From Bacteroidales bacterium (GTDB lineage: Bacteria; Bacteroidota; Bacteroidia; Bacteroidales; ML635J-15): a DNA stretch of 33,329 nucleotides. The number at the start of each line of letters is the position of its first letter. Positions within the stretch are counted from its first letter, which is position 1. This document shows, in pieces, positions 18,973 to 33,329 of the stretch. A program made the translations under genes and the position numbers. Under the pieces are notes generated by a model. The model did not search any database and was not told the origin of the DNA. It saw only the letters and a program-made list of their open reading frames with translations. The DNA lies in assembly GCA_017994175.1 (NCBI GenBank), contig JAGOLH010000004.1, forward strand, positions 71,650 to 104,978, written 5' to 3'.

Positions 18973-21066
18973 ATGAAGCCATTTTTTTCGAATATTTCGT
19001 ATAAGTTCAAAGTTATTATTCCGCTGATAATAAGCATTGTTCTGTCCATAGTGGTTGTTACCTTGTTCTCGGTTCAGAAATCGCGCGAAAATATCCGTAA
19101 GTCGATGGAGAACTATTTAAGTCTTGAAGTTCAAACCGTAAAGAAAATGTTTGAAAGAGAGAAGGCTTTGAAGACCGAAAAAGCCATTACCGGAATGAAA
19201 GTGGCTCATACCATTTTTTATTCCAATACCTTAACTATCACCGGAAATGACTATACTATTGAAGCAGAAAACCAGCTTACAGGCACCAAACATGATGAAG
19301 AACTGCAGACATGGTTTTTGGATGGGGAATCACTGAACGGAGAAAGCGCATTTGTCGATACGGTGCAATACATTTTAGGAGGGACGGTTACCGTTTTTCA
19401 GAAAATGGATTCCGGTTTTGTGAGAATTGCAACCAATGTACTGAAAACCGATGGTTCAAGGGCAACCGGTACATTTATCCCCTTCGGATCGCCTGTAGTT
19501 GAGGCTGTGATGAAAGGCGAAACCTATGTGGGCAGGGCTTTTGTGGTGAACGACTGGTATGCTTCGGTGTATGAACCCATTGTTGTGAACAACGAAATAG
19601 CAGGTATGCTGTATGTGGGGAATAAGGAGAAAGATATCAGCGAATTGAGAGTGGCACTCAAAAGCCTGAAAATTGGAAAATCCGGCTACGTTTATGTATT
19701 TGACGAAGATGGGAATGTGCTGATACACCCTGAGAACGAGGGGAAAAACTTTGCGAGAGAGACCTTTTTCGGTGAAATGACGAAAAATAAAAAAGGGTTG
19801 ATCCGGTATTCCTACGATGGAAACATGCGCTTGTCGGCTTACGATTATTTCGATGATTTCAAGCTGTATATTGTGGCGACCATTAACGAAAAAGAAGAAA
19901 CAAAACAACAGATCAACAATATTATTCTTTCTTCGTCGGTTATCACTTTTCTGATAATCCTTATACTCTCGGTGTTTGTTTACAGTATCACGGCCAAAAG
20001 CATTAAAAGGTTTTCGGAAAAACTGGAACAAACCGACAAAAATCTGCTATCGGCAAAAGAAGCTTTAAAGCAATCGGAAGACAGGTTTAAAACCTTGTTC
20101 GACAATACAGCAGACGAAATTTTTGTTACCGATGCCGATGAAAACATCATCGAAATTAATACAGCCGCATGCAAAACTTTGGGGTATTCGCGAGATGAAC
20201 TGCTTTCGATGAAAATGCATGAGATTAAAACTCCCAAATTTGCAATGTATGTCGACTCAAACCGGAAAAAGATTTTCAAACTGGGTAAATACACTTTCGA
20301 GACAGAACATCTCACCAAATCGGGCGAAGTGCTTCAGGTGGAGATGAAAAGCCGTCTGATTGAATATGGCAACGACAAACTTATTCTGAGCATTTCGCGA
20401 AACCTTTCGGAACGAAAAGAACTCGAGCGTAAAATTCTGAGTGTCGTTATCCAGACAGAAGAAAGAGAACGCGAACGTTTTTCGAAAGATATGCACGACG
20501 GTTTGGGCCCCCTGCTTTCCACCATAAAACTGTATGTGAACGAATTGGTAAACGACGAAGTGGATGCCGACGAAAAAAATAAAATGGTCAAATACACCAA
20601 CGAACTTATCGATGAAGCCATTTCGAGTACACGGACCATTTCGAACAACCTGATGCCCCGGGTAATACATGAATATGGTCTGGAGAAAGCTGTTGAGTCG
20701 TTCTGTAACAAAGTAAATAAGACCAATAAAATAAATATTGATTTCAAATTTTCAGGGATCGACCGCAGTCTCGATAAGAATGTAGAATTGATACTCTTCC
20801 GTGTTATCAGTGAGCTTATCAACAATACACTGAAGCATGCAAAAGCAAAGAATGTCGCAATCGATCTTGAAAAGAACGAAAATAAAATCCGGCTGCATTT
20901 TAAAGATGATGGAGTTGGATTCGATGTTCAGAACATCATGAACAATAAAAGCACCGGTATGGGCTTGAAGAATATTATCAGCCGTATCCGTTCCATCAAC
21001 GGGAATTGCAGCTTTTTCAGCGAACTCAACAAAGGATTCAAAATCGACATTGAGATAGATGTTTAA
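18973..21066 (+). CDS. Membrane sensor histidine kinase (Cache-PAS-HisKA_3-HATPase)
   Basis: A 697-residue NarX/DegS-type kinase. The first membrane segment is residues 14-33. An extracytoplasmic Cache 3/Cache 2-like sensor domain (about 35-310) contains GGTVTVFQKMDSGFVRIAT and GETYVGRAFVVNDWYASVYEP. The second membrane segment is 315-338, the PAS domain about 368-480, and the HisKA_3 helix has phospho-acceptor H508 (SKDMHDGLGPLLST). The ATPase has N box ELINNTLKHA and G boxes DDGVGFD and GMGLKNI. Cache domains of this kind bind small extracellular molecules; the ligand is unknown. Its partner is the NarL-type regulator 59 bases downstream. Confidence 0.9.
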   Translation: MKPFFSNISYKFKVIIPLIISIVLSIVVVTLFSVQKSRENIRKSMENYLSLEVQTVKKMFEREKALKTEKAITGMKVAHTIFYSNTLTITGNDYTIEAENQLTGTKHDEELQTWFLDGESLNGESAFVDTVQYILGGTVTVFQKMDSGFVRIATNVLKTDGSRATGTFIPFGSPVVEAVMKGETYVGRAFVVNDWYASVYEPIVVNNEIAGMLYVGNKEKDISELRVALKSLKIGKSGYVYVFDEDGNVLIHPENEGKNFARETFFGEMTKNKKGLIRYSYDGNMRLSAYDYFDDFKLYIVATINEKEETKQQINNIILSSSVITFLIILILSVFVYSITAKSIKRFSEKLEQTDKNLLSAKEALKQSEDRFKTLFDNTADEIFVTDADENIIEINTAACKTLGYSRDELLSMKMHEIKTPKFAMYVDSNRKKIFKLGKYTFETEHLTKSGEVLQVEMKSRLIEYGNDKLILSISRNLSERKELERKILSVVIQTEERERERFSKDMHDGLGPLLSTIKLYVNELVNDEVDADEKNKMVKYTNELIDEAISSTRTISNNLMPRVIHEYGLEKAVESFCNKVNKTNKINIDFKFSGIDRSLDKNVELILFRVISELINNTLKHAKAKNVAIDLEKNENKIRLHFKDDGVGFDVQNIMNNKSTGMGLKNIISRIRSINGNCSFFSELNKGFKIDIEIDV

Positions 21067-21090
21067 GGGCAGGGGTGCATATCCCTTAAA
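21062..21090 (+). repeat. Hairpin between kinase and regulator genes
   Basis: TTTAAGGG (21062-21069) and CCCTTAAA (21083-21090) are exact complements around a 13-base loop, starting at the kinase stop codon. No T run follows. It may partly terminate transcription or protect the 3' end. Confidence 0.5.
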
Positions 21091-21094
21091 ATGA

Positions 21095-21102
21095 TATATT
21101 TG
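21095..21102 (+). promoter_or_regulatory. Possible internal -7 element before the NarL-type regulator
   Basis: TATATTTG matches TAnnTTTG and lies 23 bases upstream of the regulator ATG, but there is no TTTG at the -33 position. Confidence 0.25.
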
Positions 21103-21125
21103 TTACTTATTCAATTCTTGAGTAT

Positions 21126-21773
21126 ATGGATGAATTGGTAAAAATGATAATTGTCGACGACCACGAGATTTTTCGCAATGGTCTGAAAATGGTTTTAGGG
21201 AAGCTTAAATATGTCCAATTGGTGGGAGAAGCCTCGAACGGAATGGAGTTTCTTGAAATCCTCCGAAAAACTCCAGCCGATATTGTTCTCATGGATATCG
21301 AAATGCCGGTGATGAACGGGATCGAAGCCACCGAGAAAGCCATCAGTCAGTTTCCTGGGTTGAAAATCATTGCCCTTACAATGTTTACCGACGACGACTA
21401 CATTCAAAGTATGATGGATGCAGGAGTAAAAGGCTTTCTCATTAAAAATGTAAACAAAGAAACTCTCGACAGGGCAATAAAGACGGTGTATATGGGCGGA
21501 AATTATTATTCAGAAGAATTGTTCAACTTTTTTACCAAACAAATCAGCAAAGAAGAACCTGTATCGAAAACCGATTTTAAACTTACCCGCCGCGAAAAAG
21601 AGATACTGCAACTGCTTGCGGAAGGCCTAAGCAACAAACAAATTGCCGATAAACTGTTCGTAAGCGAACGCACCATTGTGGGGCACAAATCGAACCTGCT
21701 GCTGAAAACTGGGTGTAAATCTACTATAAGTCTTCTCTCCTACGCAATTAAAAACAAACTAGTGGTGATATAA
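21126..21773 (+). CDS. NarL/FixJ-family response regulator (receiver + LuxR-type HTH)
   Basis: A 215-residue DNA-binding response regulator. The receiver (residues 5-122) has the acidic pair D11/D12, phospho-acceptor D57 (VLMDIEMP), Thr in LTMFTDDDY and Lys in GFLIKNV. A LuxR-type helix-turn-helix occupies about 150-210 (LTRREKEILQLLAEGLSN, KQIADKLFVSERTIVGHKS). It is the expected partner of the HisKA_3 kinase just upstream. Targets are unknown. It is the only DNA-binding regulator in the right half of the window, so it is a candidate regulator for nearby genes, including the hydrogenase cluster. Confidence 0.93.
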   Translation: MDELVKMIIVDDHEIFRNGLKMVLGKLKYVQLVGEASNGMEFLEILRKTPADIVLMDIEMPVMNGIEATEKAISQFPGLKIIALTMFTDDDYIQSMMDAGVKGFLIKNVNKETLDRAIKTVYMGGNYYSEELFNFFTKQISKEEPVSKTDFKLTRREKEILQLLAEGLSNKQIADKLFVSERTIVGHKSNLLLKTGCKSTISLLSYAIKNKLVVI

Positions 21774-22997: not shown

Positions 22998-23495
22998 ATG
23001 AAAACAACAAAAAAAGTTTTAATCGTAGACGATGACATCGACGTAATCACAGTGCTGGAAACCATCTTAAAAAAAGAAGGTTACACAGTAATTTCGGCAA
23101 ACGACAAGGTAGAAGGTAAAAAACTGGCTCTGGCCGAAAGACCCGACCTTGCAATTCTTGACGTGATGATGACCACACATTACGAAGGTTTTGAACTTGC
23201 CAAAGATCTTATCGAAGATCCAAAACTTGCCGGAATGAAAGTACTGATGCAATCATCGATAGATCTGATTACAACCACCAATTCGAGTGTTCAGGCAATG
23301 GCACGCGAATACCGCAAAGACCCCAGCTACAGGGAACTGCAGGTGCTGCTGATAAAAGACATCTTGTCGAACAACGCAGGCGTTGACTACAGGGCTGAAA
23401 ACGGCGAATCGATTTGGCTTCCGGTTGACGGATTCCTGAGAAAACCGGTTGATGCAGCCAGATTGCTGCCTGAAATCAACAGGGTTTTATCGTAG
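22998..23495 (+). CDS. Stand-alone response regulator receiver with extended loop
   Basis: A 165-residue single-domain receiver with no output domain. It has D11-D13, phospho-acceptor D55 (LAILDVMM), Ser in LMQSSIDL and the conserved Lys K149 in GFLRKPVD. Receivers are normally about 120 residues; here about 45 extra residues lie between the Ser and Lys positions and include GESIWLPVD. The receiver at 29788 has a shorter version of the same insertion. As first gene of the H2 cluster it may take phosphate from the hydrogenase-like kinase and act by protein contact. Confidence 0.88.
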   Translation: MKTTKKVLIVDDDIDVITVLETILKKEGYTVISANDKVEGKKLALAERPDLAILDVMMTTHYEGFELAKDLIEDPKLAGMKVLMQSSIDLITTTNSSVQAMAREYRKDPSYRELQVLLIKDILSNNAGVDYRAENGESIWLPVDGFLRKPVDAARLLPEINRVLS

Positions 23496-23598: not shown

Positions 23599-24069
23599 AT
23601 GAAAAAAAATGTTGAAGCAATATTGAACGAACACCCCAATGCAGGCCGCGATAGTTTAATTCCCATCCTACAGGAAATACAGAACGAAGAAGGCTATATT
23701 TCGGAAAATGCAGTTATTAAAGTTGGAGAATATTTGCAAATACCTTCCAGTAAAATATTTGGTGTTGCAACATTCTACAATCAATTCCGGTTCCGTCCTT
23801 TAGGTAAATTCCACATTCAGGTTTGCCGGGGAACAGCTTGCCATGTGCTGGGGTCGAAAACGGTTCTCGAAGAACTTGAAAAGAAATTAAAAATAAAAGC
23901 CGGACAAACCACAAGCGATGGCAAATTCAGCATCGAAGTTGTTGCATGTATAGGAGCTTGCGGATTGGCACCGGTAATCTCAATAAACGGTGAATTTTAT
24001 GCCAAGGTAACCACGAAGGCAATTAACGACATTATCGATTCATATAAAAATCAGGAGGCTTCAATATGA
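23599..24069 (+). CDS. hndA: [FeFe]-hydrogenase subunit HydC/HndA (NuoE-like, [2Fe-2S])
   Basis: A 156-residue thioredoxin-like [2Fe-2S] protein of the NuoE family. The cluster cysteines are in CRGTACHVLGS and CIGACGLAPV. In soluble NAD(P)-linked [FeFe] hydrogenases this subunit passes electrons within the diaphorase part next to the FMN subunit. It overlaps the next gene by four bases (ATGA, 24066-24069). NuoE of complex I is the alternative, but the following genes encode a hydrogenase and no other nuo genes are present. Confidence 0.92.
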   Translation: MKKNVEAILNEHPNAGRDSLIPILQEIQNEEGYISENAVIKVGEYLQIPSSKIFGVATFYNQFRFRPLGKFHIQVCRGTACHVLGSKTVLEELEKKLKIKAGQTTSDGKFSIEVVACIGACGLAPVISINGEFYAKVTTKAINDIIDSYKNQEASI

Positions 24070-26018
24070 CGGCAACAAAATTTGTGAACAAAGATTTCCT
24101 TACCAAGGAAGTGCTTAAAAAGTTCGATAAAGGTCAGCCCTCAGCAGAAACTGCAAAACGGCTTGCCACAATACGAAACGAAAAGAATCAGAAACCGGTG
24201 ATCTTCATTGGGGCGGGAACATGTGGGCTAGGTGCCGGAGCAGGTAAAACCATAGTAGCAACAAAAAAATATCTGCTTAACACAGGAATCGACGCCGATA
24301 TTATAGAAACAGGTTGCATCGGGTTGTGTGCTGCAGAACCCCTGCTTGATGTGCAGCTTCCGGGATTCAATAGAATTTCGTTCCGAAATGTTACTGAAGA
24401 TAAAGTAGAATCAATACTGAATTCGGTTTTTTCAAAAAAACTCCCTTCAGAACCCGCCCTGGTTCAATTCAGATCGGAGGGCTCCAATGTTTGGGACAAT
24501 GTCTCGTTCATGGAAGACCATCCATTCTTCGGTCCACAAATAAGACTGGTTCTGAAAAACTGCGGTATAATCAATCCTGAAAGTATTGAAGAATATATAG
24601 CACGTGGTGGTTATACCGGTTTTCTGAATATTATTCATCATTACAAACCCGTTGAGGTCTGCGATTTAATAGAAAAAAGCGGTTTGCGGGGCCGTGGCGG
24701 AGGCGGGTTCCCAACAGGTAAAAAATGGAGATTCGCTTTTAATACCGAAGCCGATCAAAAGTACTTAATCTGCAATGCTGACGAAGGCGATCCGGGTGCG
24801 TTTATGGACCGCGCGGTAATCGAGGGCGATCCACATCGTTTGATTGAAGGTATGGCAGTAGCAGCTTATGCTATCGGAGCAACGAAAGCATACGTTTATA
24901 TCCGTGCAGAATATCCTCTGGCAATCAAGAGGCTGCAAATTGCTCTTCAGGATGCTAGGGCATTCGGGTTACTCGGTAAGAATATTTTCGGTACCGGAAT
25001 CGACTTCGACATGAAATTAAAAATGGGTGCCGGTGCATTTGTTTGCGGCGAAGAAACTGCTTTGATAGCTTCTATCGAAGGAAAGCGCGGTATGCCTAGT
25101 CCGCGACCTCCATTCCCTGCAGTAAGCGGTTTATTCCGTAAGCCTACTATTATTAATAATGTGGAAACCTTGTCGAATATCCCCGAAATTATATCTCGTG
25201 GCGCCGATTGGTTTGCTTCTATCGGAACTACTACCAGCAAAGGCACTAAGGTATTTGCTCTTTCAGGGAAAGTTGCACTGACCGGACTTGTTGAAATTGT
25301 AATGGGAACCTCTATTCGCGATATAATATTTACCATAGGAGGAGGGATAAAAAACAATAAAAAATTTAAAGCCGTACAAATTGGCGGCCCTTCGGGCGGT
25401 TGCATCACCGAGCAAAACCTTGATATACAGATCGATTACGAATCGCTTATTAACGCCGGTGCCATGATGGGTTCCGGAGGGCTCGTTGTTATGGACGAAG
25501 ACAACTGCATGGTGGATGTGGCAAAATTTTTTATGGATTTCATCCAGCGCGAAAGCTGCGGGAAATGTATCCCCTGCCGTGAAGGAACTAAAAGAATGCT
25601 TGAAATACTTGAAAGTATTACCCATAAACCGACCAATTCAAATCAATACGATGCCCTCGAAAGATTCAAAGGAATTCTTCAACTGGAACGTCTCGGAAAA
25701 GTTATTAAAGACACTTCACTGTGCGGACTCGGTCAAACGGCTCCCAACCCGGTGTTGAGTACCTTAAAATGGTTCAGGGAAGAGTACGAAGCTCATATTT
25801 TTGAAAGGAAATGTCCTTCGGGTGTTTGTACTGAATTGAGAACTTTCCGCATTGATGTTGAAAAATGTACGGGTTGCACAGTATGTGCAAAAAAATGCCC
25901 GACTAACGCCATAATTGGAACAGCCAAATCTCCTCACTTTATTATTGACAGTAAGTGTATCGGGTGCGGCAGTTGCGAACAGGTTTGTAAGTTCGGAGCT
26001 GTTATTTTAAATGACTAA
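24066..26018 (+). CDS. hndC: [FeFe]-hydrogenase subunit HydB/HndC (NuoF-like NAD(P)/FMN subunit)
   Basis: A 650-residue protein. Residues about 40-125 are a thioredoxin-like [2Fe-2S] domain (GAGTCGLGAGA, TGCIGLCAAEP), equivalent to a fused HndB. The NuoF core follows with GRGGGGFPTGKKW and NADEGDPGAFMDR for FMN and NAD(P) binding, and ESCGKCIPCREGTKRM for its [4Fe-4S] cluster. A two-cluster ferredoxin ends the protein (CTGCTVCAKKCP, CIGCGSCEQVCK). A Shine-Dalgarno AGGAGG at 24053-24058 supports the start. This subunit carries the site where NAD(P) and ferredoxin electrons meet in bifurcating hydrogenases. Confidence 0.94.
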   Translation: MTATKFVNKDFLTKEVLKKFDKGQPSAETAKRLATIRNEKNQKPVIFIGAGTCGLGAGAGKTIVATKKYLLNTGIDADIIETGCIGLCAAEPLLDVQLPGFNRISFRNVTEDKVESILNSVFSKKLPSEPALVQFRSEGSNVWDNVSFMEDHPFFGPQIRLVLKNCGIINPESIEEYIARGGYTGFLNIIHHYKPVEVCDLIEKSGLRGRGGGGFPTGKKWRFAFNTEADQKYLICNADEGDPGAFMDRAVIEGDPHRLIEGMAVAAYAIGATKAYVYIRAEYPLAIKRLQIALQDARAFGLLGKNIFGTGIDFDMKLKMGAGAFVCGEETALIASIEGKRGMPSPRPPFPAVSGLFRKPTIINNVETLSNIPEIISRGADWFASIGTTTSKGTKVFALSGKVALTGLVEIVMGTSIRDIIFTIGGGIKNNKKFKAVQIGGPSGGCITEQNLDIQIDYESLINAGAMMGSGGLVVMDEDNCMVDVAKFFMDFIQRESCGKCIPCREGTKRMLEILESITHKPTNSNQYDALERFKGILQLERLGKVIKDTSLCGLGQTAPNPVLSTLKWFREEYEAHIFERKCPSGVCTELRTFRIDVEKCTGCTVCAKKCPTNAIIGTAKSPHFIIDSKCIGCGSCEQVCKFGAVILND

Positions 26019-26037: not shown

Positions 26038-27762
26038 ATGGACCTCAGGATAGAAGTTAATAAACAAGTGCTTGAAGCAAACAAAGGTGAAACAATCCTG
26101 GATGTGCTGAACAGAAACGGTATAAAAATACCAACACTGTGCCATATGAAGGAAGCTTTTCCTACCGGTGCCTGTCGTATGTGCGTTGTAGAGAACGAAA
26201 AAACCGGAAAACTCATCACAGCGTGTTCATATCCCGTTGAAGAAGGAATGAAAATTAAAACACATTCTTCTCGGGTTATTGAAGCAAGAAAAACTATCGT
26301 TGAATTGCTTTTATCGAACCACCCCGACGATTGCCTTTACTGTGTAAGAAATCAGAACTGCGAACTTCAGAACCTTTCCGAAGAGCTAAGGGTACGCGAA
26401 CGCAAAATCCGTGGTGTAAAAAATAATTGCTATATCGATAATTCCAGTGCAAGTATAGTACGTGACCCTGACAAATGCATCTTATGCGGAAGGTGTGTAT
26501 TCGTTTGCAGCCAGGTAATCGGAGTGTCGGCTATTGACTTTGTAAACCGCGGAAGCAAATCGGTTATAGGAACAGCATTCAACAGAGGGCTGAACACATC
26601 GAGCTGCGTGAATTGCGGACAATGTATCATGGTTTGCCCCACGGGTGCTCTTACGGAGAAAAATCACTTTGGAGAGATTATGGAAGCATTGAAAAACCCC
26701 GAAAAAACGGTAGTAGTTCAATATGCTCCCGCAATAACTGTTTCTATTGCAGAATCGTTTGGAATGAAGGTTGGGAAAGACCTCAATGGTAAAATGAACG
26801 CAGCTTTGCGCAAAATTGGGTTCGACAAAGTTTTCGACACCAGCTTTTCGGCAGACCTCACCATAATGGAAGAGTCAGCCGAGCTGATCGACAGAATTTC
26901 GAACGGAGGCGTGCTGCCGATGATTACCAGTTGCTGCCCCGCATGGATTAAATATGCCGAAGAATTTGCATCCGACTTTTTACCAAACCTTTCAAGCTGC
27001 AAATCACCGCAGCAAATGATGGGTGCAGTTATTAAAAGTCATTATGCTAAAACCGCTGGCATAGCACCTGAAAACATATATTCGGTGTCGATAATGCCTT
27101 GCACTGCAAAAAAGTTCGAAGCACAGCGCGAAGAAATGACTAACAAAGGAATTACCGATGTTGATGCTGTGTTAACCACCCGCGAATTTGTTCAGCTAAT
27201 AAAAATGTTCGGCATCGATATGGATAAGATTGAACCGGAATCAACCGATTCTCCTCTGGGGGCAAGAACCACTGCCGGAAAAATATTCGGTGCTACCGGA
27301 GGTGTGATGGAAGCTGCTATTCGTACAGCCTACTTCAAATTAACCGGAAAAGAACTCCTTACTTTTAAAGTACCCGAAGTAAGAGGGTTTAAAGACAGAA
27401 AAGAAGCCACCCTTAAGATAGGTGATCTCGACGTTACAGTGGCCGTAGTAAATGGACTTGCAAATGCAGCAGTACTACTCGATGAAATACGTAACGGAAG
27501 AAAAGACGTTCACTTTATCGAAATAATGGCTTGCCCAGGCGGCTGTATCGGTGGTGGAGGTCAAAAAATAGGATCAAGTGTGGAAGAAAAAATGGCCAAA
27601 ATGAAAGCCCTGTATGATATCGACGAACATGAAGCGATAAAAGTTTCGCACAAAAACCCGGAAGTAATTGAACTTTATAAGGAGTTTTTGGGTGAACCTC
27701 TAGGCCATAAGAGCCACGAACTATTGCATACCAAGTATTCGAAAAGGGATGTTTTGAAATAA
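26038..27762 (+). CDS. hndD: [FeFe]-hydrogenase catalytic subunit HydA/HndD (group A type)
   Basis: A 574-residue enzyme that interconverts H2 with protons and electrons. In order: [2Fe-2S] domain (C35, C46, C49, C63); His-Cys [4Fe-4S] (H95, C99, C102, C108); two [4Fe-4S] clusters (C147/150/153/157 and C190/193/196/200); and the H-cluster domain with TSCCPAW (C299, C300), MPCTAKKFE (C355) and EIMACPGGCIGGGGQ (C499, C503). The proton-shuttle Cys C299 and all four cluster ligands are present, at the same numbers as in Clostridium CpI. It lacks the additional C-terminal [2Fe-2S] domain of Thermotoga HydA and resembles Desulfovibrio HndD in length. Maturases HydE, HydF and HydG are not in the window. 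Confidence 0.95.
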   Translation: MDLRIEVNKQVLEANKGETILDVLNRNGIKIPTLCHMKEAFPTGACRMCVVENEKTGKLITACSYPVEEGMKIKTHSSRVIEARKTIVELLLSNHPDDCLYCVRNQNCELQNLSEELRVRERKIRGVKNNCYIDNSSASIVRDPDKCILCGRCVFVCSQVIGVSAIDFVNRGSKSVIGTAFNRGLNTSSCVNCGQCIMVCPTGALTEKNHFGEIMEALKNPEKTVVVQYAPAITVSIAESFGMKVGKDLNGKMNAALRKIGFDKVFDTSFSADLTIMEESAELIDRISNGGVLPMITSCCPAWIKYAEEFASDFLPNLSSCKSPQQMMGAVIKSHYAKTAGIAPENIYSVSIMPCTAKKFEAQREEMTNKGITDVDAVLTTREFVQLIKMFGIDMDKIEPESTDSPLGARTTAGKIFGATGGVMEAAIRTAYFKLTGKELLTFKVPEVRGFKDRKEATLKIGDLDVTVAVVNGLANAAVLLDEIRNGRKDVHFIEIMACPGGCIGGGGQKIGSSVEEKMAKMKALYDIDEHEAIKVSHKNPEVIELYKEFLGEPLGHKSHELLHTKYSKRDVLK

Positions 27763-27789: not shown

Positions 27790-29781
27790 ATGAGCCACCC
27801 ACGTAGAAATAAACTCGTATTTACAGTAAAAAATCGCTGTCGGGTTTGCTATACCTGCGTAAGAGAGTGCCCTGCTAAAGCAATAAAAATTGTTAACGGT
27901 CAGGCAGAAGTAATCAGCGAGCGGTGTATTGGATGTGGAAATTGTGTAAAAGTTTGCAGCCAGAATGCTAAAGTCTTTCTCGATACTAAAAAAGAGGTAT
28001 ACGCATTAATACAGTCCTCAAAAAAAACCGTAGCATGTATTGCTCCGAGTTTTCCTGCTGAGTTTACCGAAATAAACGATTACCGGATCATCGTTGGAAT
28101 GATAAAAGCATTGGGCTTCGACAAAGTAGTCGAAGTTTCTTTCGGGGCCGATCTTATTGCCAACGAATATGCTAAAATAATTGACAATAGCAAGTCTACC
28201 TGCATTTCATCCGATTGTCCGGCAATCGTGTATTACATTGAGCACTATTACCCCCATCTCGTAACATCGCTTGCCCCGTTGGTGTCGCCCATGGTTGCCA
28301 CAGCTAGAGTTGTGAAAAAGGAATATGGAGATGTGAATGTTGTGTTCATCGGGCCCTGCATCGCCAAAAAAGCTGAATCGTACGAAATTGATGAAGCTAT
28401 AACTTTTAAGGAATTGCGTGAATTGTTTTTGGAAAATAATATATCATCCAGTTCGGTTTTGCCAGTTAACTTCGACCCACCCCTTGGAGGGAAAGGTGCA
28501 ATATTCCCTGTTAGCAGTGGATTGTTGCAAACAGCAAATAAAAACGAAGATCTTACATCCGGAAAAATAATTGTTGCCAGCGGAAGTAAAAGCTTCAGGG
28601 AGCTGATTGATGAGTACGATGAAGGGCTGATACGAAACAGCCATCTGGAGCTACTCTGCTGCGACGGGTGTATAATGGGCCCCGGAATGTCGAAACAGGG
28701 CAAGAAATATTCCCGACGGGAGTGCATAAGTAATTACGTTAAAAACAAATTGACAGAACTTGATACTGCTGAATGGGAGAAAAACATCGAAAAGCATAGC
28801 CATCTTGATTTATCGAAGGCTTTTGCACCTCTCGACCGAAGGAACGGGAAACCGTCGGAAGAAAGCATCAGTAACGTATTAAAAACAATGGGGAAGGTCG
28901 ATCCGAACGATTTTTTAAATTGTGGTGCCTGTGGTTATAATACCTGTAGAGAACATGCCATTGCTATAATTGAAGGACTCGCCGAAAATGAAATGTGCCT
29001 GCCTTATTCAATCAGTAAATTACATAAATATATTCAGGAATTAAACATTTCGAATTCGAAGCTTAAAAATGCCCAAAGGGCTTTAAAACAATCGGAAAAA
29101 CTCGCAAACATGGGGCAGCTTTCAGCTGGTATCGCACATGAACTCAACAACCCGCTAGGTATAATTACCATGTACAGCAACATTCTTAAGGATGAATCCG
29201 CTGGAGATGATCCAATACGCAAAGACCTTGAGCTCATTGTGGAACAAGCTGATCGGTGCAAGAAAATAGTAAGCGGCCTTTTGAATTTTGCCCGTCAGAA
29301 TCAGGTAAACCTCAGCGAAACCAATATTGAAACGCTATGCAAACATAGTTTTGAATCGATTGTAAACACAGGAAACATTGTCTTCGAGTTCGAATCGAAT
29401 CTGAAAAACCCTATGGCCATGATTGATGCTGATCAAATGATGCAGGTTCTTACCAATCTCGAGAAAAATGCTATTGAAGCTATGCCCAAAGGCGGAACGC
29501 TGAAAATAACCCTCAACGGGGATCAGAATTCGTTTGAGATAAACATCAGCGATACAGGTATTGGTATCGAAAAAAGCAATATCGACAAAATATTTACTCC
29601 GTTTTTCACAACCAAACCGCTCGGGAAAGGAACAGGCTTGGGGTTGCCATTGATTTACGGAATTGTGAAAATGCACCGAGGGCAGATTGAAATGACCTCA
29701 AACGCAGACCCTGGCAAAGGGCCTACTGGAACAAATTTTAAAATTGTATTACCAAGATTAATTAATAACAAACAAAAGTAG
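27790..29781 (+). CDS. Hydrogenase-like sensor fused to histidine kinase (putative H2 sensor)
   Basis: A 663-residue protein. A two-cluster ferredoxin (C17/20/23/27 and C46/49/52/56) leads into an [FeFe]-hydrogenase H-cluster domain (about 80-330) with SSDCPA (D142, C143), GPCIAKKAES (C190) and LLCCDGCIMGPG (C290, C294). A single [4Fe-4S] domain of PF04060 type follows (C378, C381, C386, C403), then a short helix and a histidine kinase with H450 (SAGIAHELNNP), N box LEKNAIEAM and GTGLGLPLIYG. Four H-cluster cysteines are kept, but Asp replaces the proton-shuttle Cys. It lacks membrane segments, so sensing is cytoplasmic. Sensory hydrogenases (HydS) are known; this fusion probably reports H2 or redox state by phosphorylation. 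Confidence 0.9.
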   Translation: MSHPRRNKLVFTVKNRCRVCYTCVRECPAKAIKIVNGQAEVISERCIGCGNCVKVCSQNAKVFLDTKKEVYALIQSSKKTVACIAPSFPAEFTEINDYRIIVGMIKALGFDKVVEVSFGADLIANEYAKIIDNSKSTCISSDCPAIVYYIEHYYPHLVTSLAPLVSPMVATARVVKKEYGDVNVVFIGPCIAKKAESYEIDEAITFKELRELFLENNISSSSVLPVNFDPPLGGKGAIFPVSSGLLQTANKNEDLTSGKIIVASGSKSFRELIDEYDEGLIRNSHLELLCCDGCIMGPGMSKQGKKYSRRECISNYVKNKLTELDTAEWEKNIEKHSHLDLSKAFAPLDRRNGKPSEESISNVLKTMGKVDPNDFLNCGACGYNTCREHAIAIIEGLAENEMCLPYSISKLHKYIQELNISNSKLKNAQRALKQSEKLANMGQLSAGIAHELNNPLGIITMYSNILKDESAGDDPIRKDLELIVEQADRCKKIVSGLLNFARQNQVNLSETNIETLCKHSFESIVNTGNIVFEFESNLKNPMAMIDADQMMQVLTNLEKNAIEAMPKGGTLKITLNGDQNSFEINISDTGIGIEKSNIDKIFTPFFTTKPLGKGTGLGLPLIYGIVKMHRGQIEMTSNADPGKGPTGTNFKIVLPRLINNKQK

Positions 29782-29787
29782 ATTGCC

Positions 29788-30183
29788 ATGACAAACAAAA
29801 TGAAAACCATTGCCATTGTTGATGATGATATCGATTATTTAACGATACTCAAAATGCAGGTTGAGAGAATGGGATTTAATGTGGTTTTTGCTGAAAACCA
29901 AAAAGATGGTGAAAAATTACTGGAAACCACAAAACCCGATCTGGCCATTTTCGACCTGATGATGGAAAATCAGGATAGTGGGTTTATTCTCAGTTACAAA
30001 TTAAAAAAAATGTATCCCGATGTACCGGTGATTATTGCAACTGCAGTAACCGCTGCCACAGGCATCGAATTTGGGATCGAAACTCAGGAAGACAGAAGCT
30101 GGATAAAGGCTGACAAATATCTTGAGAAAGGCCTCCGGCCCGACCAGTTACACCGCGAAATAAATAAGTTGCTGAAATTATAA
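29788..30183 (+). CDS. Stand-alone response regulator receiver, second copy in H2 cluster
   Basis: A 131-residue receiver with D12-D14, phospho-acceptor D56 (LAIFDLMM), Thr in IATAVTAAT and the conserved Lys K114 (KYLEKGLRP). It has no output domain. Between Thr and Lys it carries EDRSWIKADKYLEK, which matches the ESIWLPVDGFLRK stretch of the receiver at 22998. It begins six bases after the sensor kinase stop, so the two proteins are almost certainly made together. Confidence 0.9.
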   Translation: MTNKMKTIAIVDDDIDYLTILKMQVERMGFNVVFAENQKDGEKLLETTKPDLAIFDLMMENQDSGFILSYKLKKMYPDVPVIIATAVTAATGIEFGIETQEDRSWIKADKYLEKGLRPDQLHREINKLLKL

Positions 30184-30195
30184 AAACCAACCGTT

Positions 30196-31314
30196 ATGGA
30201 AACGCTTAAGGTATTAGTTGTTGACGACGAACCTGGAATACGTTCCGGAATTGAAAGAATTCTCCGAAACTACACTGTTGGCTTCCCTTTCATGGAAAGC
30301 GACTTTTCATTCGAATTAATCGAAGTGGAGACGGGCGAAAAAGCGATGGAAACATTGGCAAAAGATCGTATCGATATTATTTTGCTCGACAATAAGTTGC
30401 CCGGCATTCAGGGCATTGAGGTACTGGAGAATCTCAATAAGATGCAATACGACGCAGTTGTAATGATGATAACATCGTATGCATCGCTCGACCTGGCTGT
30501 AAAAGCTACCAACAACGGTGCTTATAACTTTGTTCCCAAACCCTTCACCCCGCAGGAGTTGAAGTCGGCTATGGAAAATATAACAAAACACCTGTACCTG
30601 AAGCGCATGACACGTAAGATGAATGATGCCGGAAAAGAAATCCGCTTTCAGTTTTTATCAGTACTATCGCACGAACTAAAATCACCAATCAATGCTATCG
30701 AAGGATATTTAAAGATAATGCAGGAAAAACAGGTGGGCGACAACATCGATGATTATCAGGTGATGATCGACAGGTCGATTACGCGTATTAAAGGCATGCG
30801 AAACCTAATAATGGATTTACTTGACCTGACAAAGCTTGAGTCAGGAAAAAAATCAAGGGAAATTAAACCAACTGACATGTATGAGCTTGCCAAGCTGACA
30901 ATGCAAAGTATTGAGCCATTAGCAATTCAGCGAAACGTACAAATCCAGTTCGATGCCGATGAAAACACCTATTTTGACGCTGATGCTGATGAAATAGAAA
31001 TAATTTTCAACAACCTGCTTTCGAATGCTGTGAAATACAACAAGGAAGGTGGCAGGGTGTATTTCACAATAAAAGCACTTAAAGATGAAATAAAAATAAG
31101 CGTTCAAGACACCGGTATCGGTATGAACGACGAAGAATTGTCGAAAATTTTTCATGATTTCGTAAGAATAAAAAACAAAAAAACTATCGACATTACCGGT
31201 AGCGGGTTAGGCTTGTCGATAATGAAAAAAATGGTCGATTTATACGGTGGTAACATCGATGTTACAAGTGTTCCCGATGAGGGGAGTACTTTTACTGTTA
31301 CCTTGCCAAGATAA
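30196..31314 (+). CDS. Receiver-histidine kinase hybrid, last gene of the H2 cluster
   Basis: A 372-residue protein with an N-terminal receiver (D10/D11, phospho-acceptor D65 in ILLDNKLPG, Thr in MITSYA, K115 in VPKPF). A HisKA domain follows with H159 (LSVLSHELKSPINAIEG) and a HATPase domain with NNLLSNAVKYN, DTGIGMND and GSGLGLSIMKK. A receiver before a kinase lets one phosphorylation signal control a second kinase, so this may be an intermediate of a phosphorelay. It starts 12 bases after the second receiver. There is no membrane segment and no DNA-binding domain. Confidence 0.9.
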   Translation: METLKVLVVDDEPGIRSGIERILRNYTVGFPFMESDFSFELIEVETGEKAMETLAKDRIDIILLDNKLPGIQGIEVLENLNKMQYDAVVMMITSYASLDLAVKATNNGAYNFVPKPFTPQELKSAMENITKHLYLKRMTRKMNDAGKEIRFQFLSVLSHELKSPINAIEGYLKIMQEKQVGDNIDDYQVMIDRSITRIKGMRNLIMDLLDLTKLESGKKSREIKPTDMYELAKLTMQSIEPLAIQRNVQIQFDADENTYFDADADEIEIIFNNLLSNAVKYNKEGGRVYFTIKALKDEIKISVQDTGIGMNDEELSKIFHDFVRIKNKKTIDITGSGLGLSIMKKMVDLYGGNIDVTSVPDEGSTFTVTLPR

Positions 31315-31439: not shown

Positions 31440-32246
31440 ATGGAATTATTTGTACGCAAATATGGCAATGCCCCCCAACACCTGATCATTCTTCACGGGA
31501 TGTATGGCAGTGGCGATAACTGGACAAGTATTGCCAGAAACCTATCCGACGGGTTTACGGTGCACCTGCCCGACCTTCGTAACCACGGTCGTTCTCCGCA
31601 CAGCCCCGATCACACCTATGAATTGCTGGCTGAAGATGTATATGAATTTGTTACCGGTCAGCGCATCGAGCGATTTTATCTTGCCGGTCATTCGATGGGT
31701 GGAAAAACTGCCATGTTTTTTGCCCGGCAGCATCCGGAAATGCTTATAAAAATGGCAGCCATCGACATATCGCCCCGCACTTACCATCAATTGAACCAAC
31801 TGTCGGAGCAGACAATTTTTCATCTCAATCTTATAAGCTATCTCATCCGCTGCAACGTGGAAAAAGCACACAACTATGCCGAAGCTGCAAGCATTCTCAG
31901 CGAAGGTGTACCGAGCCAGCGCATGGTGCAATCGCTGCTGAAAAATCTCGAAAAAACCGGGGATGGAATGATGTGGCGTATTAATATTGAGGCGCTTAAA
32001 GACAATATTTACGCTATGGGAGATGGTCTTGATCCCGACGACTTTATCGATAGAAAAATCGCAGTTCCCACATTGTTTTTGCGAGGGCTTAAATCAAACT
32101 ATCTTCCAGTCGAAGATGAAAAGCTGATCCACTTTATTTTCAGCAATGCCCGCATTGTGAACGTTCCCGAAGCAAGTCACTGGATGCACACCGAACAGCC
32201 CGAAGCCATTGTTACAGAACTCCGGCATTTTTTCAGTGAAGATTGA
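31440..32246 (+). CDS. Alpha/beta hydrolase (YbfF-like esterase)
   Basis: A 268-residue protein if it starts at ATG 31440. The frame extends to a TTG at 31362, but those residues match nothing in the family and the family N-terminus begins near [10 protein letters not shown]. Motifs are [11 protein letters not shown] (oxyanion hole), DLRNHGRS, nucleophile S85 in GHSMGG and His in [11 protein letters not shown]. This matches YbfF-like acyl esterases acting on small or CoA-type esters. A TATTTTTGG element (31427-31435) sits six bases before the ATG, so the transcript may be nearly leaderless. Confidence 0.88.
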
Positions 32247-32281
32247 TTATCAGCAGAAACATTACTATAACCAAAAAAAGC

Positions 32282-32290
32282 TATTTTTGC
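32282..32290 (+). promoter_or_regulatory. Putative -7 element of the DUF362 gene
   Basis: TATTTTTGC matches TAnnTTTGC exactly and lies 27 bases before ATG 32318. The -33 region (CATT near 32260) is weak. Confidence 0.4.
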
Positions 32291-32317
32291 GGCATAAAAA
32301 CCTGTAATACAATACCT

Positions 32318-33329
32318 ATGATACTTCACAGCATGCTCAAAATTAAACTAACTCTCCTGATAATAGCAGGATTCCTTCTAACCGTAAATACTACTTTCTC
32401 GCAATCTGCCAGCGACACTGCCATTGTGTATTTCACAAAAGAAATTTCGCCCGAAAGTGTGATGAAAATTTTTGAATATGTGAAAGATAACGTCAAAGGG
32501 AAAGTGGGGATAAAAGTACATTTTGGTGAAGACGGCAACGAGTATTTTGTACCTGCAAGCATGGTGGAGCCTTTATGCAAAGCCTATAATGCCACACTGA
32601 TAGAGACGAATGTAGCCTATACCGGGCGCAGACAGAAAACCGAAACCCACATTGAACTGGCAAAAGATCATGGCTTTACATTCGCACCCATCGACATTCT
32701 CGACGAAGGCGGCACGCTGAGTTTGCCAATCGAAGGAGGCAGACATTTTAAAACCGCCCTGATTGGAAAGAATTTCGAAAACTACGAAATCATAATTTAT
32801 TTCACACACTTTAAGGGACATGGCAGAGCAGGTTTCGGAGGATGCATCAAAAACGCATCGATGGGAATGGCTACTCCCGAAGGCAAACGCGATATGCACT
32901 TCAACGATTTTCCGAAACCTGAAAGCAAAAACTGCATGGGCTGCGGTGCCTGTGTAAGTGAATGTCCTGCAAATGCCATTACCCTCAACCCGCTTACCAT
33001 CGATAAAGAGAAGTGTATCGGCTGCGGGAAATGCATTTCCACCTGCCCCTATGGTGCCATTACCAAGCCTGACAATGCCGAACAAACAATTCGTTTTCTG
33101 GAAGGTCTGGTTGAATATGCCAAGCCGGTGATTGAGCACACCAATTCCATTTTCTTCAATATTATTATCAATGTATCGCCAAGTTGCGACTGTTCACGGA
33201 ACCCAAAGCAACCCTTTGTTGCCGACATCGGGATACTGGTTTCCACCGATATTGTTGCCATTGAAGCCGCTGCCCACGACCTTGTCGATAAGGCACACAA
33301 CTGCGACGATGCCTTCCTGAAAGCCAATT
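32318..33329 (+). CDS. DUF362 protein with ferredoxin domain, exported (truncated by window edge)
   Basis: The frame is open from ATG 32318 through the window end (337 codons, no stop). The N-terminus ([18 protein letters not shown], then TTFSQ) looks like a signal peptide; ATG 32333 is an alternative start. A DUF362 domain follows ([36 protein letters not shown]), then two [4Fe-4S] motifs (C206/209/212/216 and C233/236/239/243), then the rest of DUF362 ([15 protein letters not shown]). DUF362 proteins are widespread in anaerobes and of unknown function. An exported iron-sulfur protein is unusual. Confidence 0.82.

Follow-up and report, generated by a model that had tools for sequence, protein, structure and literature searches.

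A kinase-fused [FeFe] hydrogenase of a Bacteroidales genome with a clade-conserved aspartate at the proton-shuttle site

A standing question about sensory [FeFe] hydrogenases is how they detect H2 without consuming it and, for the group C enzymes, by which route protons move. The window analyzed here (33,329 nucleotides of contig JAGOLH010000004.1, assembly GCA_017994175.1, from a Bacteroidales bacterium) raises this question through a single residue: a hydrogenase domain fused to a histidine kinase (HydS) carries aspartate at the position of the shuttle cysteine. The earlier note had reported this substitution in the L1 motif of HydS alongside an intact TSCCPAW motif in the catalytic subunit (HydA) of the same cluster, and both readings are borne out, with residue 142 encoded by a GAT codon. 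The aspartate clade, beside similar clades with alanine, proline, serine, and asparagine, offers a natural panel for relating one residue to H2 affinity, direction bias, and signaling, and because the kinase is fused to the sensor, H2 binding should be readable as autophosphorylation in a single purified protein.

The HydS protein and its gene cluster

HydS lies within a conserved cluster for a bifurcating hydrogenase, the genes of which are as follows, preceded by a regulator gene upstream of the cluster (window coordinates):

21126-21773, + strand: NarL-type DNA-binding response regulator, candidate output (PF00072 and GerE)
22998-23495, + strand: REC165, stand-alone receiver with which the conserved cluster begins (PF00072)
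23599-24069, + strand: HydE/NuoE-like subunit of the bifurcating hydrogenase, thioredoxin-like 2Fe-2S (PF01257, NuoE family)
24066-26018, + strand: HydF/NuoF-like subunit (FMN, NADH, Fe-S; PF01512, PF10589)
26038-27762, + strand: HydA catalytic subunit with TSCCPAW, MPC, and EIMACPGGC motifs (NCBIfam FeFe_hydrog_A6, 830 bits against a cut-off of 765)
27790-29781, + strand: HydS, kinase-fused sensory [FeFe] hydrogenase, 663 amino acids (open reading frame, Pfam, and fold)
29788-30183, + strand: REC131, stand-alone receiver, 6 bases downstream of HydS (PF00072)
30196-31314, + strand: REC-HisKA-HATPase hybrid, kept downstream of REC131 (domains)

From the HydE/NuoE-like gene onward the intergenic gaps are at most 27 bases, the distance separating HydA from HydS, and the order REC - HydE - HydF - HydA - HydS - REC - REC/kinase is seen in dozens of genomes. 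REC165 occurs upstream of the HydE subunit gene in many related loci and REC131 directly follows HydS in nearly all of them; these stand-alone receivers have no DNA-binding domains. The NarL-type regulator, also found close to the hydrogenase cluster in several relatives, is the nearest candidate output of HydS signaling. The genome encodes all three maturases (HydE, HydF, and HydG, each above its cut-off) and has only two PF02906 genes, HydS and HydA. Elsewhere in the window, a Cache-PAS histidine kinase and this NarL-type regulator form a pair upstream of the cluster (18973-21773), which is found downstream in one related locus (L048), and an open reading frame at 32243-33328, open at the window end, has two 4Fe-4S motifs and is possibly ferredoxin-like.

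Within HydS, the following domains were assigned:

27829-27969, + strand: two N-terminal [4Fe-4S] cluster motifs, residues 14-60 (PF13237/PF12838)
28021-28683, + strand: H-cluster domain, residues 78-298 (PF02906/Fe_hyd_lg_C, 155 bits against a cut-off of 22.1 bits)
28915-29004, + strand: C-terminal [4Fe-4S] domain, residues 376-405 (PF04060)
29110-29301, + strand: HisKA (DHp), residues 441-504, with phospho-acceptor H450 in HELNNP (PF00512 and motif)
29425-29757, + strand: HATPase_c, residues 546-656, with N, G1, and G2 boxes (PF02518 and motifs)

The eight cysteines of the N-terminal cluster motifs are present in every aligned row, the cysteine positions of the C-terminal domain (C378, C381, C386, and C403) form a Cx2Cx4Cx16C motif, and, read as motifs, the H, N, G1, and G2 boxes of the kinase are all intact. 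A Pfam search (E 0.01) found no PAS domain in HydS, and only 35 residues separate the C-terminal Fe-S domain from the HisKA. Residues 1-430 gave a confident structure prediction (pLDDT 92, pTM 0.89) that matches [FeFe] hydrogenase structures, including CpI, CbA5H, HydABC, and the engineered CpI C299D (6glz), with VIA-align Z scores of 40 against CbA5H and 38 against CpI; the model thus places a hydrogenase fold in the N-terminal part of the protein. In the full-length model, the linker at 415-457 has a pLDDT <50, which is too low to trace a helix from C403 into the DHp. Taken together, the kinase fusion, the operon shared with a bifurcating hydrogenase, the intact kinase boxes, the receiver partners, and the maturases in the genome favor the sensory role proposed in the earlier note.

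Aspartate 142 and the H-cluster pocket

The three H-cluster motifs of HydS read ISSDCPAI (L1), IGPCIAKKAES (L2), and LELLCCDGCIMGPG (L3), and contain the following residues of interest:

28213-28215, + strand: D142 (GAT), equivalent to CpI C299 (aspartate in 85/91 orthologues)
28216-28218, + strand: C143, L1 ligand (91/91 orthologues)
28357-28359, + strand: C190, L2 ligand (91/91 orthologues)
28657-28662, + strand: C290 and C291, with C291 the likely L3 ligand and C290 a clade-typical neighbor (91/91 for C291, 84/91 for C290)
28669-28671, + strand: C294, L3 ligand (91/91 orthologues)

Orthologues were gathered in three ways, from the genome's own family, from named genomes, and from an even draw across the order. 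Within the family, an orthologue is present in 13 of the 31 genomes (this one counted), and the 12 others all share D142, such that aspartate occurs in 13/13. The named-genome scan returned 80 loci, nearly all from Bacteroidetes or Bacteroidales MAGs, and across these two sources aspartate is found in 91 of the 97 non-identical high-scoring homologues. The least biased sample, the even draw of 295 genomes from the order, had matches in 144 genomes and yielded 91 kinase-type places, with 85 aspartates, three asparagines, and three serines at position 142, a distribution that rules out a random mutation or a single-genome oddity. Judged across these 91 orthologues, the conservation of D142 (93%) is more than recent descent, because the median pairwise identity of the hydrogenase domain is 54%; about 23% of the domain columns are conserved at least as strongly. 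By the same alignment, aspartate is not indispensable, as ~7% of the orthologues have asparagine or serine in its place.

The earlier note had listed C143, C190, C290, and C294 as the retained ligands of the H-cluster, of which C143, C190, and C294 stand (each invariant) and C290 probably does not. Position 290 is cysteine in 84/91 orthologues of the order-wide sample and serine, glycine, alanine, or threonine in the other seven, while position 291 is cysteine in all 91, and other Bacteroidota sensors have phenylalanine or tyrosine at 290 and cysteine at 291. These counts were taken from the order-wide sample, as the search pattern of the named-genome scan required cysteine or tyrosine at 290 and so biased its count. 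C290 was set aside as the L3 ligand, although its CxxxC spacing matches that of CpI and the Firmicutes HydS, because only C291 is invariant, and the ligand set is thus probably C143, C190, C291, and C294. The CN-binding lysine (K193) is likewise invariant in the 91 orthologues, and we infer that an H-cluster is assembled in HydS. The suggestion that the site is "tuned rather than dead" fits an aspartate fixed in the clade together with retained ligand cysteines and CN-binding lysine.

Aspartate at this site falls in a single clade, made up of Bacteroidales-type genomes. Position 142 is proline, alanine, or serine in the kinase-fused homologues that an even sampling of 395 genomes gave for other families of the phylum. 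A phosphatase-linked paralogue (beside a SpoIIE phosphatase gene) has mostly asparagine, and Firmicutes HydS on plasmids have cysteine or serine; the plasmid search for HydS returned distant homologues only. With columns 142 and 290 excluded, a 166-row tree explains aspartate by two changes, and in a smaller mixture-model tree 31 aspartate and three asparagine rows form one group of 34 (SH-aLRT 86), with the serine rows outside of it. With moderate support, a single gain of aspartate followed by a few aspartate-to-asparagine changes is the simplest history.

The phosphatase-linked paralogue, a second sensory hydrogenase, lacks a HATPase, lies beside a SpoIIE phosphatase gene in one locus (L044), often has aspartate or asparagine in place of the L3 ligand cysteine (position 291; eight loci), and in six of these loci is encoded upstream on the opposite strand. 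In same-family genomes, Rex-, RibF-, and UDP-glucose dehydrogenase-like genes, as judged from their N-terminal sequences only, lie between the cluster and this second sensory hydrogenase. Because of the residue at 291, the second paralogue may be without an H-cluster.

The neighboring HydA is of the bifurcating type, its L2 motif reading MPCTAKKFE in full. Among 73 clusters for which both genes were read, HydS has aspartate in 73/73 and HydA has the shuttle cysteine in 43/73; in the remaining 30 the HydA site is occupied by alanine, aspartate, glutamate, serine, or histidine, and 24 of these 30 also lack the CN-binding lysine equivalent to CpI K358. As the HydS aspartate is constant while the HydA site varies, the sensor pocket is, at the level of sequence, steadier than the 'catalytic' HydA pocket in this clade, and HydABC-like complexes with a cysteine-less HydA may not be ordinary hydrogenases. 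HydA proteins without the shuttle cysteine and lysine have usually lost Met353 as well, with the ligand cysteines mostly kept (seven loci, among others). An apparent lack of the L2 cysteine in HydA-like neighbors of the same family was rejected, the alignment placing a cysteine there and the change at Lys358/Met353 instead.

Proton path, proposed mechanism, and alternatives

Loss of the shuttle cysteine is in itself ordinary and already published for sensory [FeFe] hydrogenases, in which the site is occupied by alanine (~43%), cysteine (~17%), and proline and serine (~10% each)(PMC10055695). In HydS the rest of the known path has also changed. The equivalent of CpI S319 is Ala162, the sites of CpI E279/E282 are not conserved acids (the helix register differing by ± one residue between alignments), and the group D residue E252 would correspond to Leu245, judged from an alignment of the F417 region; Y127, near the old proton path, is well conserved. 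By alignment, HydS lacks the group A proton path and, judging from the position of Leu245, probably that of group D. Because the other group A path residues are missing and activity fell when the cysteine was restored in TmHydS (A131C; PMC10055695), Asp142 should not be regarded as part of an intact classical shuttle. On the same two grounds, the earlier expectation that loss of the cysteine would by itself slow turnover is not supported in that form, and a D142C swap should not be expected, by analogy, to restore turnover, which would make it a weak test alone.

Engineered enzymes point to what an aspartate at this position could do instead. The carboxylate of CpI C299D hydrogen-bonds the azadithiolate amine, and this variant retains 30-80% of its H2 release (PMC6226526); across three catalytic enzymes the cysteine-to-aspartate change left 10-58% of evolution and 0.02-4% of oxidation (PMC9563086). 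By analogy, the substitution in HydS is predicted to suppress H2 oxidation far more than H2 evolution.

HydS is, on balance, probably an H2-responsive histidine kinase whose H-cluster pocket is acid-tuned. The HydE, HydF, and HydG maturases would build the H-cluster into the N-terminal hydrogenase domain, where D142, with the other known proton paths missing, would set the acidity beside the azadithiolate amine and, as in the engineered variants, would be expected to preserve the binding of H2 and part of the proton reduction but to make net H2 oxidation much slower. From the cluster, the change would reach the DHp by way of the C-terminal [4Fe-4S] domain and the helix that follows C403, with no PAS in between, and would alter the phosphorylation of H450 and the flow of phosphate to the REC131 receiver and the REC-kinase hybrid, with REC165 or the NarL-type regulator as further possible recipients. 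We infer the H2 response, the direction of signaling, and the role of D142. A more specific and tentative form of this proposal, which we consider somewhat unlikely, is that the clade-fixed change to aspartate is functional in that its acidic group makes the H-cluster bind H2 and hold an oxidized or pH-gated state without turnover, with the C290-C291 pair part of the same tuned pocket.

HydS might instead contain an H-cluster with incidental H2 chemistry while the kinase reports cellular redox, through ferredoxin or NADH by way of HydABC together with the N-terminal clusters, leaving the aspartate as a clade marker with little effect. The asparagine or serine in six of the 91 orthologues, the kinase still kept beside many co-operonic HydA that lack the shuttle cysteine and lysine, and the redox-active N-terminal clusters of TamHydS (PMC13104023) would all suit such a role, but D142 is far more conserved than the domain around it and the H-cluster ligands are invariant, making this account improbable. 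The domain could also be a structural relic with [4Fe-4S] clusters and no [2Fe] subsite that senses oxygen or iron-sulfur status. Decay of this kind does occur in the family, as some SpoIIE-linked paralogues have lost a ligand cysteine (aspartate or asparagine at 291), but with C143, C190, C291, C294, and K193 invariant in the 91 orthologues and the maturases present, a relic is very unlikely for HydS. Equally hard to credit is an efficient hydrogenase in which Asp142 is the first residue of a third, unrecognized proton path, for while few swaps at this CpI site do less damage than C299D (PMC6226526) and Y127 is conserved close to the old path, Ala162, the unconserved E282/E279 sites, and Leu245 (with the helix register uncertain by one residue) argue against it.

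Comparison with known systems

HydS lacks the features of group A (the TSCCP shuttle cysteine and the E279/E282/S319 path). It has the group C (M2f) layout of two N-terminal clusters, an H-domain, and a Cx2Cx4Cx16C cluster, without the PAS that follows the C-terminal cluster in that group, and it does not have the hydroxyl residue of group D (M2e) at CpI M353, where glycine (G188) occurs in 97/97 homologues. Its own HisKA and HATPase_c domains provide the histidine kinase linkage that defines HydDB C1, and HydS would be placed, by domain make-up, as a kinase-linked (C1) sensory enzyme of group C/D.

This kinase-fused, HydABC-linked architecture is already known. The HydDB group C1, '[FeFe] histidine kinase-linked (putative)' (PMC5037454), shares with HydS a hydrogenase domain and a histidine kinase and has been proposed to sense H2. 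Zheng and Huang (PMC11406978) could barely detect H-cluster motifs in the Hydrogenedentota C1 enzymes, whereas HydS has all of the ligand cysteines and a clade-fixed aspartate; they also describe BfuT, of the sub-type V BfuABC of Hydrogenedentota, a sensory hydrogenase that is HydABC-linked and bears a histidine kinase domain, as HydS does, and file it as C3. TmHydS from Thermotoga maritima (group C, M2f) resembles HydS in its two N-terminal clusters, missing shuttle cysteine, glycine at CpI M353, Cx2Cx4Cx16C domain, and operon shared with HydABC (PMC8163306, PMC10055695), but combines a shuttle-site alanine with a PAS where HydS has aspartate and a fused kinase without PAS, and near CpI M497 it has serine where HydS has leucine. 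TamHydS from Thermoanaerobacter mathranii (group D, M2e) likewise has no PAS, has a C-terminal cluster domain, and adjoins a bifurcating hydrogenase, but differs in its alanine at the shuttle site, serine at M353, and E252/E289 path, compared to the aspartate, glycine, Leu245 (likely at the E252 position), and fused kinase of HydS.

None of the papers searched was found to describe a natural conserved aspartate at the shuttle site; the supplementary logo of PMC10055695 may show one. The closest counterparts are the engineered C299D CpI, C298D CaI, and C169D CrHydA1 and a CpII variant, all with aspartate at the position matching D142 (PMC6226526, PMC9563086). These are catalytic laboratory mutants with an otherwise intact proton path, while HydS is a natural sensor from which the rest of that path is missing, and by this analogy the clade-fixed aspartate may be regarded as a new, natural counterpart of the C299D variants.
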